Shown here piece after piece: positions 53,857 through 57,032 of a DNA stretch of 64,000 nt; within the stretch, counting starts at the first letter, position 1, and each line of letters begins with the position of its first letter. The DNA is from Chloroflexota bacterium (lineage in GTDB: Bacteria; Chloroflexota; Limnocylindria; Limnocylindrales; CSP1-4). Made by a program: the position numbers and the translations under genes. The notes under the pieces were generated by a model that was given only the letters and a program-made list of their open reading frames with translations, was not told where the DNA came from and ran no database searches. Location: contig CANJLL010000011.1 of the NCBI GenBank assembly GCA_947475545.1, positions 1 through 64,000 of the forward strand, written 5' to 3'.

Positions 53857-54945
53857 TCAGGCGAACCGCTCGAGGTCGCCAAGCGGGACGGAGATCGTCT
53901 CGCCGCCGTCGAGCTCCACGCGGCCGGTCTCCAGCCAGACCCCGCCCGGGAACCGGCGCGGGCCCGCCATGCCCGCCCAACGGCCCTCCGCGCCCGCGAG
54001 CGCACCGGCCCGGATCCGGACCAGGTCGGTCGGCGGGACGGGCAGCGCAGGCGCGTCCCCGGCCACCTCGAAGGCCAGGCAGGCCGGGTCCACGACGATG
54101 CCGACGTCCAGGCCCTCCAGGGCCTCGAGGATCGCCATCACGGGGGAGGAGATCGGCCGCCGAAGCGTTCCGTCCAGGACGAGCACGGCAAACGGCGGGA
54201 GCCGCTGGCGAGACGCCCGCTGGCGTGCCTCCGACGCCATGAAGTCGCGGCGCTCCTTGCTGGGCATGGCCCCAACCACCACCCCTCGAACACCCATCGC
54301 GCGCGCGCGGGTCAGCGCCTCCGCATCGATTCGTGCCCCGACCACGAGGATCTCGCCCGCCCGCCCAACGTCGATCGCCGAGGCCCGAAGCTCCCCACCC
54401 GGCGTCGCCGCAATGGCCAGTCGTCCGCGGGTCGGCCCGCCAAGGACGGTCGAGCCGAGGACGCCGGACGCAGTGGTTGCGAGGCTGATCCCGGCGCCAC
54501 CGCTGACGCTGGTGACGATGCCGTCGACCGGAGCCTCGAGCGGATCGGCAATCTCGCCGGCGATCACCCGCCAGCGCCCGTCGAGCTCGAACAGGTACTC
54601 CCCGGCCAGGTTGGGATCGATCCCGGCGCCGGGCTCCGGTGCCCAGCGCTGGCCCGGCCTGGGCGCTACGGCGGCGCGCTCGCCGCGTCCGACACGACCG
54701 GCTCGCCGGATCATCGGCTCTCGCAGCCGTCGCGCCAGGGCGCTGCCTGCCACGACCTGGTCCCCCGCCGCGACAAGCGGCTGATCGCCCGGCGCCAGCG
54801 CCAGCCGGACGGTCAGGACGGGATCGATGATGCGGCGAACGGCCAGCAGCGAGAAGCCAGCATCGCCGGCTGGGTCGCCATCGCCGGGCCCGGCGGGCCG
54901 GTTGGCGTCGGCCGCCGATCCGGCAGCCGACCAGCGCGCCCTCAC
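53857..54945 (-). CDS. hypothetical protein with barrel-sandwich-like segment; partner of the MutL-like gene
   Basis: PVDGIVTSVSGGAGISLATTASGVLGSTVLGG...; GTG start overlaps upstream stop by 4 bp. Confidence 0.65.
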   Translation of the reverse strand: MRARWSAAGSAADANRPAGPGDGDPAGDAGFSLLAVRRIIDPVLTVRLALAPGDQPLVAAGDQVVAGSALARRLREPMIRRAGRVGRGERAAVAPRPGQRWAPEPGAGIDPNLAGEYLFELDGRWRVIAGEIADPLEAPVDGIVTSVSGGAGISLATTASGVLGSTVLGGPTRGRLAIAATPGGELRASAIDVGRAGEILVVGARIDAEALTRARAMGVRGVVVGAMPSKERRDFMASEARQRASRQRLPPFAVLVLDGTLRRPISSPVMAILEALEGLDVGIVVDPACLAFEVAGDAPALPVPPTDLVRIRAGALAGAEGRWAGMAGPRRFPGGVWLETGRVELDGGETISVPLGDLERFA

Positions 54946-56630
54946 GCCGTCCCCCCGGGCCAGGCCGAATCCTCCCAACGGGCCAGCAGCTCGCGGCGCG
55001 CCTCCCGCCGATCCGGGAGCCGGAGCGGAACGTCGCGCAGGTCGATCAGCAACCCACCGACCCCACCGGCAACGTCGACCGAGAGACGGCGCCCGTAGCT
55101 CCCCAGGAGCACGGGCTCGGCGGACTCGAGCAGGACCGTGGCCTGCTCCCCCGGCGGAACCGGTGTGAATTCCAGGGCGCCATGATCGAGGCCCATCGTC
55201 ATCGTCCCGCCCGGGGAGTCGACGATCACGCGGCCGGCCCGTCGGCCGGGTCGGATCGCGCCGGGCATCACGATCGAGCCGAGCGGCAGGAGCAGGTCGC
55301 CGGCGAGATCTGCGACCAGGATGTCTCGCTCGACCGGGTCGCTGACGGTACCCAGGGGACCCAGGAGGCGCGCGTGGTCGAAGACCACCTGGATCGCCGC
55401 CGGCCGCCGGACGGCGTCCGCCAGCGCCAGGAGGATCGCCGCGGCGGGCGCAGGAGCAAATGCGCCGCCGGCCATCACCACCAGGTCGGGGGCAGGGCCG
55501 TCACCGATCTCCGGGGTGAGTGCCGCTAGGCGGCTGAGCGCGGCCCGGGCCGCCGCCAGGCGGAGCCGGGCACCATCGCCGGCCACCCCCGTCCACGGCG
55601 CGGCGCGCAGCTCGAGCAGGCGGTCACGGAGCCGATGGCGGTCGAACGGCTGGGTGGACCACGCCTGGACCGCCTCCAGGCGTGCCTCGCTGAGCTCGTA
55701 CGGCACCAGCGCCGCGCCTGCGCCCTGGACTGCCCGGACGTGGCTGCTGCCCGCGGTGGGACCCGGTGTCGCGCTGGCCCGCAGCCCCCCGTCCAGGCCG
55801 ATCTCCAGCAGCTCGACCCGCCGGTCCAGTGCCCCGGCCAGCCCCCCCAGGGCGGCCGTCATGGCCTGGCGCGACTCTGCCGGATCGCGCCGCAACCCCG
55901 CCAGCGCCGCGGTCAGGGCGGCCCATTCGACGCCGTCTTCGACGTCGCGGGGCACCAGCAGGACACGGGGGTGGGCCGACACGTCGTTCGATGCGGGTCG
56001 TGCCACGCCGGCCGCCGACTCCTGGTCGCCCCTGCGCAGGCCCCGGAGCCGTCCGTCGCGACCAGGGAGCCCGAACCGCGTCCGCAGGTTGCCTGCCGAC
56101 CCGGCCAGCACCACCGTGAGATCCGGGCGCCGCTGCGCCGCCGCAGCGGCCAGCGCCACCAGCTCCGGAAGGCCGGCCCGCTCATCCCCACCGGGCGGAT
56201 CGCCGGCGCCCACCACGGCAACGGAGACAGCGGGGTCCAGCAGGAGGGCGGTCATCGCTCCCGCGTGCAGCCGGTCGCCACTTGCCCCGCGCCAACGCCA
56301 GCCCGAGCGGGCCACAGCGACCGTCAGCGGCTCAAGGGCGCGCGCGGAAGCCGCGAACACAGCCACGGTCCCCGGCACCAAGCTTCGAGCGACCAGGTGC
56401 GGCATGTCCTGCGTGGACCCGCGGGCGAGCCCCACGGTCGCGGCCAGGTCGGGATCCGCGCTCCGGATGCGCTCCGCGAGCAGCTCGAGCAGGACATCGA
56501 CTGGGGCAGAGGCTGGCGCCGCGAGCGCTCCCAGCAGGCGCCACCGACCCGCGACGCGGCCGATCAACGCGGTCGCGGTCGTGGCAGCCCCAAGGTCGAG
56601 CGTGGCGAACGCGCGGGGAGTGCCCTTCAC
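54942..56630 (-). CDS. GlmL/MutL-like ASKHA-fold ATPase (divergent)
   Basis: N-terminal FATLDLGAATTATALIGRVAGRWRLLG; C-terminal DLVVMAGGAFAPAPAAAILLALADAVRRPAAIQVVFDHARLLGPLGTV...LLPLGSIVMPG pattern of the MutL family; GTG start assumed. Confidence 0.65.
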   Translation of the reverse strand: MKGTPRAFATLDLGAATTATALIGRVAGRWRLLGALAAPASAPVDVLLELLAERIRSADPDLAATVGLARGSTQDMPHLVARSLVPGTVAVFAASARALEPLTVAVARSGWRWRGASGDRLHAGAMTALLLDPAVSVAVVGAGDPPGGDERAGLPELVALAAAAAQRRPDLTVVLAGSAGNLRTRFGLPGRDGRLRGLRRGDQESAAGVARPASNDVSAHPRVLLVPRDVEDGVEWAALTAALAGLRRDPAESRQAMTAALGGLAGALDRRVELLEIGLDGGLRASATPGPTAGSSHVRAVQGAGAALVPYELSEARLEAVQAWSTQPFDRHRLRDRLLELRAAPWTGVAGDGARLRLAAARAALSRLAALTPEIGDGPAPDLVVMAGGAFAPAPAAAILLALADAVRRPAAIQVVFDHARLLGPLGTVSDPVERDILVADLAGDLLLPLGSIVMPGAIRPGRRAGRVIVDSPGGTMTMGLDHGALEFTPVPPGEQATVLLESAEPVLLGSYGRRLSVDVAGGVGGLLIDLRDVPLRLPDRREARRELLARWEDSAWPGGTA

Positions 56631-56741
56631 CTCGCCAATGCTACGCGGCACCGCACGCTCCGGTGCCAGGACCCGGCCCGGCCTCGCCACGGGACCGGGA
56701 GCTTGAACCCGGGAGCGGCGGACGTGAACGCCCGACCCAGG

Positions 56742-57032
56742 TCAGGCGTCCCAGCCGTCATCCTCGTCGATCTCCTCGAGGCGCTCGATGAGAAGCTCGA
56801 TGCCGGCGTCGTCCGCGAGGATCGCGGACGCCGCGGCGAGCTCGCCGCCGAACACGCCGCGCAACACAGGGTCGAAGAAGAGCATGGCATTGGCGCCGAG
56901 GGCCCGGTATGGCCGGCTGGCCTGGAGGAACTGCACCGCCGGACCGGCGAGGCCGCGCAACATGATCTCGCGGGCAGCCTCTTCCACCAGCTCGCTGCGC
57001 TGCTCCTCGGTGGGCTCCATGGGGAGGCTCAT
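56742..57032 (-). CDS. small hypothetical acidic-tailed protein
   Basis: 96 aa, translationally coupled to alr; ends IELLIERLEEIDEDDGWDA. Confidence 0.6.
   Translation of the reverse strand: MSLPMEPTEEQRSELVEEAAREIMLRGLAGPAVQFLQASRPYRALGANAMLFFDPVLRGVFGGELAAASAILADDAGIELLIERLEEIDEDDGWDA

Follow-up and report, generated by a model that had tools for sequence, protein, structure and literature searches.

The orf96-P1-P2 locus

The window, a stretch of 64,000 nucleotides from a contig of a Chloroflexota bacterium, carries on its minus strand genes in the order glmS-acpS-nnr-alr-orf96-P1-P2-tsaE-tsaB-rimI-tsaD-ksgA-ispE. The present study concerns P1 and P2, together with orf96, which precedes them. 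The features of the locus are as follows.

56742 to 57032, minus strand: orf96, small conserved protein of 96 aa; its homologues immediately precede DUF6754 in loci outside the window's family and lie upstream of the long MutL gene in other phyla
56631 to 56741, no strand: gap of 111 bp between orf96 and P1; at the corresponding place, genome G059 (locus L042) has DUF6754, c33, c30, and c31
54942 to 56630, minus strand: P1, open reading frame of 562 aa with a GTG start, identified by family linkage
54942 to 54945, minus strand: GTGA, 4 bp shared by the P1 stop and the P2 start
53857 to 54945, minus strand: P2, open reading frame of 362 aa with a GTG start

The initial annotation described two genes overlapping by 4 bp between alr and tsaE, and this was confirmed; the genes are arranged head-to-tail, and the GTG start of P2 (54945 to 54943) overlaps the TGA stop of P1 (54944 to 54942). 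From this GTGA arrangement, translational coupling of P1 and P2 is likely. A longer P1 starting from another GTG at 56690 is possible, but the homologues give no support to it. The orf96 gene, which was not picked up in the initial annotation, is part of the same system as P1 and P2.

We compared the genome containing the window with another of the same genus and obtained dN/dS values of 0.11 for P1, 0.21 for P2, and 0.02 for orf96, together with 0.12 for tsaD and 0.18 for alr as reference genes. Because their values range from 0.02 to 0.21, P1, P2, and orf96 are real genes under purifying selection. Of 61 related genomes, single-sequence searches recovered P1 from 33 and P2 from 52. Where loci of the window's class were fetched, the two genes invariably lay side by side or, in one family, were fused. 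Thus, the pairing is far beyond chance, and the conservation of the adjacency, which the initial annotation had left to be checked, was observed. Across 251 Chloroflexota genomes, the co-occurrence of P1 and P2 gave a Fisher p of 3e-33, a value uncorrected for phylogeny.

Families, folds, and motifs of P1 and P2

Neither P1 nor P2 of the window gave a credible sequence match in Pfam, NCBIfam, or PDB, the matches being at chance level only. P1 did not match the Pfam MutL family (PF13941, gathering cut-off 27 bits), nor did it match the GlmL models NF040745 (475 bits) and TIGR01319 (204 bits). However, P1 orthologues in family f4 and in other Chloroflexota, unlike P1 itself, exceed the PF13941 cut-off, and thus the window P1 is tied to MutL through transitive homology. 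The P1 profile matched in 120 of the 251 Chloroflexota genomes, where Pfam MutL matched the same open reading frames in many cases, and a MutL match over the cut-off was found in 104 genomes. In profile-profile comparison, a diverse alignment of the P1 family (A6) matched true GlmL with a probability of 99.8% (E 4e-29, 408 columns); a close alignment (A1) gave an insignificant result with hhalign. The AlphaFold2 model of P1 (pLDDT 92.2, pTM 0.92) had 62 Foldseek matches in PDB at E of 0.001 or lower, and the top-ranked among those listed were ASKHA proteins; hydantoinase-type enzymes, PilM, Hsp70, and sugar kinases were matched. The TM-scores were low, about 0.2-0.5, and only the superfamily fold of P1, the duplicated actin/Hsp70-like fold, is secure. 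Within the MutL/GlmL-type ASKHA superfamily, P1 is a divergent member and not a GlmL, which agrees with the resemblance and the divergence recognized in the initial annotation.

Sequence comparison places P1 in a group, here called long MutL, with a C-terminal beta domain of about 110 aa. In P1, the MutL-like ASKHA core spans residues 1 to about 445, and the C-terminal beta domain and a helix span residues about 445-556. The motifs of the two proteins, all on the minus strand, are as follows.

56577 to 56603, minus strand: P1 phosphate-1 loop TLDLGAATT, retained (consensus outside Chloroflexota, ATDCGSTTT)
55776 to 55808, minus strand: P1 phosphate-2 position LEIGLDGGLRA, degenerate (V-D-x-G-G-A-T-T-D in non-Chloroflexota relatives and true GlmL)
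55452 to 55481, minus strand: P1 adenosine motif VVMAGGAFAP with GG retained (consensus VGSGGVLSH)
55014 to 55058, minus strand: P1 C-terminal signature GGLLIDLRDVPLRLP (family consensus GGxxGLIIDARGRPLxLP, absent from true GlmL)
53977 to 54027, minus strand: P2 KOW motif DLVRIRAGALAGAEGRW, from profile matches

In long MutL outside Chloroflexota, the set ATDCGSTTT, VDIGGATTDVF, and VGSGGVLSH is nearly invariant. P1 lacks the motif set of an active ASKHA ATPase, the phosphate-2 sequence D-x-G-G-A-T-T-D being replaced by E-I-G-L-D-G-G. Because of this loss, the label "ATPase" given in the initial annotation is weakened, and efficient ATP hydrolysis by the form of P1 in the window is improbable. 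In genome G230 (L202:4221-8024), a 1268-aa open frame contains a MutL-like domain whose DIGGATTD is intact.

The proteins of known systems share some of these characters. P1 and GlmL/MutL (PF13941; NF040745, TIGR01319) have a homologous ASKHA core of about 450 aa, in which the phosphate-1 and adenosine motifs are recognisable in P1. In contrast to GlmL, long MutL has the additional C-terminal domain with the GG..DARGRPL.LP signature and, without a mutase partner, lies in an operon with membrane genes and P2; furthermore, the window family lacks the phosphate-2 motif and is below the GlmL cut-offs tested. The fold of P1 is also that of PilM/FtsA-type and Hsp70-type ASKHA proteins, and the highest-ranking PDB matches include Hsp70/DnaK as well as PilM in complex with either nucleotide or PilN. 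PilM resembles the full system described below in that a cytosolic ASKHA protein is paired with membrane proteins, and Hsp70 resembles long MutL in the placement of a beta domain after the ASKHA core. However, no sequence-level match of P1 to PilM or Hsp70 was found, and the membrane partners differ.

P2 consists of a disordered N-terminus, a barrel-sandwich-like region, a swivel/PA-like alpha/beta domain, and a C-terminal KOW, and its AlphaFold2 model (pLDDT 87.4, pTM 0.83) is beta-rich with an alpha/beta middle. The initial annotation suggested a barrel-sandwich domain, and this is probably right: relatives of P2 match RnfC_N and Biotin_lipoyl, with scores of 21.9 and 33.4 bits for RnfC_N (cut-off 25.6 bits), the one above the cut-off being that of locus L255, although the window P2 itself gave no match. 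Judging from these sequence matches, the N-terminal region is a predicted barrel-sandwich domain. The N-terminal barrel-sandwich of RnfC/NqrA (PF13375, PF05896), which the P2 relatives match, is the closest known counterpart of this part; however, no other RnfC/NqrA domain was detected, RnfC models score far below the cut-off, and P2 adds the swivel/PA-like domain and the KOW. The modelled middle part may resemble PA/swivelling domains, with the ZNRF3 ectodomain among the structure matches, all of which are weak. The KOW was recovered by matches of the P2 profile to the KOW regions of SPT5, NusG, and L24 and by KOW folds in Foldseek, and in the P2 relative of L183 the Pfam KOW score was just under the cut-off (20.8 vs 22.3).

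A seven-gene operon and its probable reduction

In other genomes, homologues of orf96, P1, and P2 occur in an operon of seven genes: orf96, DUF6754, c33, c30, c31, long MutL, and P2. Four of these encode membrane proteins, with TM-like segments numbering two in DUF6754, six in c33, two in c30 (TM-loop-TM), and five to six in c31. DUF6754 (PF20539) is an uncharacterised family. In Chloroflexota, the order is orf96-DUF6754-c33-c30-c31-MutL-P2 (L171, L178, L190, L193, L194, L204, and L205), with orf96 first and DUF6754 second; P2 directly follows long MutL in most Chloroflexota loci examined, and in many the membrane genes and orf96 lie upstream. For many of the loci outside Chloroflexota, local profile scans gave the order orf96-MutL-P2-DUF6754-c33-c30-c31 (e.g., L251, L255, L269, L270, L291, and L295). 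Complete copies of the operon were recovered from Chloroflexota as well as from candidate phyla, among them Latescibacterota, Planctomycetota, and Marinimicrobia. Named genomes were scanned with long MutL as query, the P2 alignment containing no part of sufficient conservation, and this gave at least 561 confirmed stretches, the best 80 of which include records of Armatimonadetes, WOR-3, Zixibacteria, Latescibacterota, Planctomycetota, Marinimicrobia, Eisenbacteria, and Fermentithermobacillaceae. DUF6754 was present in 55 of the 251 Chloroflexota genomes, and 54 of the 55 also have P1 or P2. These gene orders point to a seven-gene, partly membrane-bound system that is widespread across many bacterial phyla.

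The association is not uniform. In some long MutL loci, the fetched flank contains neither P2 nor membrane genes, and in Chloroflexia-type genomes P2 and long MutL are unlinked (L177, L183, L189, L192, and L198). In L177, L189, and L192, P2 is followed by a response-regulator gene and then the ATP synthase operon; a link to polarity or gliding through the response regulator was considered and rejected, the conserved neighbours being ATP synthase genes. The c30 protein has a zinc ribbon, a long linker, and two TM segments in Chloroflexota and is short elsewhere. The Chloroflexota linker (L197:1220-5755, L180, L182, L188, L191, L194, and L205) contains many short PDWLxxL-like repeats, with up to 48 W[LM] dipeptides vs a shuffled mean of about 5, and these repeats are possibly docking motifs. 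Fermentithermobacillaceae-type genomes (L248:3041-9947, L253, and L223) have two tandem long MutL/P2 pairs with orf96 between them, followed by uracil-DNA glycosylase-like, TsaE, RimI, and TsaD genes. Long MutL, P2, and orf96/c31-like genes were also seen in a record titled Thermoproteota archaeon (L258), which may reflect a binning error or transfer.

Within the class of the window, genome G059 has alr-orf96-DUF6754-c33-c30-c31-P1-P2-tsaE, that is, the full operon in the same slot. The window family keeps only orf96, P1, and P2 there, and the 111-bp gap stands where the four membrane genes would be. DUF6754 and c31 were not found in the window's own genome, which is 90.7% complete, so that membrane genes could sit in a gap of the assembly; c30 and c33 were searched for in the fetched loci. 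Among the 61 genomes searched, c31 was detected only in G059, and it was detected in none of the 36 family relatives. From this comparison, the lineage of the window has apparently lost the four membrane genes from the alr-tsaE slot, and orf96, P1, and P2 are the putative remnant of the seven-gene system. The "two-component" system of the initial annotation is accordingly not supported, the pair being the tail of a seven-gene one whose four membrane genes are missing here. The core cellular role proposed there from the position between alr and tsaE is also weak, because G059 has the full operon in this slot, whereas in other phyla the system lies at different places.

The reduction has gone further in family f2, whose genomes are about 1 Mb. 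Here, P1 and P2 are fused as one open reading frame of about 570-640 aa (nine loci), from which most of the N-terminal half of P1, including phosphate-1, is absent. The ATP motifs thus decay stepwise, from the nearly invariant set outside Chloroflexota through the window family (TLDLGAATT, LEIGLDGGLRA, and VMAGGAFAP) to the fusion without phosphate-1. That the four membrane genes and phosphate-2 have gone, and that the fusion has lost phosphate-1 as well, might be taken as signs that P1 and P2 are pseudogenes decaying after the membrane module disappeared. We regard this as highly improbable, however; the dN/dS values indicate purifying selection on all three genes, the frames are intact across the family, and the pair is kept as a single fused frame even in genomes of about 1 Mb.

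Possible functions of the system

On balance, we favour the reading that P1, P2, and orf96 are what is left, in soluble form, of a widespread seven-gene system connecting cytosol and membrane, in which long MutL would act as a clamp. Three other functions are suggested by homology or by gene neighbourhood. A chaperone role in the reactivation of glutamate mutase has been described for MutL/GlmL (PMC4682846), and since P1 is homologous to GlmL, it could be a divergent reactivating chaperone of a B12-dependent mutase, namely methylmalonyl-CoA mutase (MCM), with P2 as an adaptor. MCM was present in 40 of 41 genomes searched, including streamlined ones, and in the genome of the window. The initial annotation noted no B12-dependent mutase in the window, and consistently the two PF01642 mutase proteins of this genome are encoded elsewhere; a glutamate mutase was also looked for, and GlmE (PF06368) was not found in the genome. 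MCM is present, but P1 fails the GlmL tests applied. With the pair also conserved as neighbours, neither of the outcomes that the initial annotation named as refuting it, a confident place among true GlmL beside a mutase encoded elsewhere or a lack of conserved adjacency, was observed. Two long MutL relatives scored 69 and 227 bits on NF040745 (cut-off 475) and 50 and 160 on TIGR01319 (cut-off 204). GlmE was over the cut-off in only four of the 251 Chloroflexota genomes (G142, G187, G223, and G225), and true short GlmL (frames of about 450-490 aa, E below 1e-130) was found in four (G115, G142, G223, and G225), including three of the four GlmE genomes. The presence of MCM does not track the P1-P2 pair: 72 genomes have MCM without either protein. 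Because P1 or P2 occurs without MCM in 21 genomes, the role of a mutase chaperone is disfavoured. Moreover, the repair of MCM is known to involve a G-protein (PMC10356863), and four membrane genes are unexpected beside a mutase chaperone. We therefore consider this function very unlikely.

TsaB and TsaD are ASKHA proteins, and KOW domains often bind RNA or ribosomes. Together with the position of the pair, which adjoins tsaE-tsaB-rimI-tsaD throughout the class and lies near tsaE-rimI-tsaD in Fermentithermobacillaceae of Bacillota (two lineages in all), this raises the idea that the pair assists the machinery of t6A tRNA modification (TsaB/TsaD/TsaE) in an accessory role. However, no tsa gene was seen beside the operon in the other Chloroflexota and candidate phyla examined, and roughly 40% of the searched Chloroflexota genomes gave no sign of the pair; since the full operon fills the same slot in G059, the position may be simply inherited. 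This role is quite unlikely. Alternatively, the system could serve lipoyl/glycine-cleavage metabolism, for example in the assembly or repair of a membrane-linked GcvP/GcvH partner, with the barrel-sandwich of P2 mimicking the lipoyl carrier. The RnfC_N and Biotin_lipoyl matches fit this idea, orf96-MutL is preceded by gcvPB in 12 loci from several candidate phyla, and at L255:1869-14019 one run leads from gcvT-gcvH-gcvPA-gcvPB through n4, a small membrane-like gene, and the seven-gene operon to a gene for a lipoate ligase. Among the Chloroflexota loci examined, however, none had an identifiable gcv gene near the operon, and the association may be an inherited gene order in one superphylum, so that we consider this role unlikely. 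Outside the class of the window, the Chloroflexota loci examined have neither the tsa nor the gcv association.

Returning to the remnant of a membrane-associated system, P1 and P2 would form one physical complex, because they are fused in one family and nearly always adjacent. In the full system, by analogy with its fold, long MutL may be a nucleotide-gated clamp of the Hsp70/PilM kind, which its C-terminal beta domain and P2 would dock to the membrane proteins. In the organism of the window, the P1-P2 complex would work without the membrane module and probably with no hydrolysis of ATP, either as a nucleotide-binding or as a purely structural scaffold. It seems somewhat more probable than not that four membrane proteins are coupled, in a seven-gene machine, with an Hsp70/PilM-like ASKHA protein of the cytosol and with a barrel-sandwich/KOW adaptor, and that in one class of Chloroflexota it was pared stepwise to a soluble, hydrolysis-defective P1-P2 pair and then to a single retained fused protein.

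P1 represents a variant within a known superfamily, and the seven-gene system appears to be undescribed. In the open-access literature, which leaves out most subscription papers, neither DUF6754 nor PF13941 was named in any paper found, and no paper connected MutL-type proteins with Chloroflexi. Long MutL is close enough to GlmL to risk being misnamed as a mutase accessory protein, and its operon is conserved over many phyla, mostly uncultured. The series from the full operon to three genes and then to one fused gene reveals which parts are dispensable and marks the interaction of P1 and P2 as the core, and the function is thus directly testable in a cultured member of Chloroflexota.
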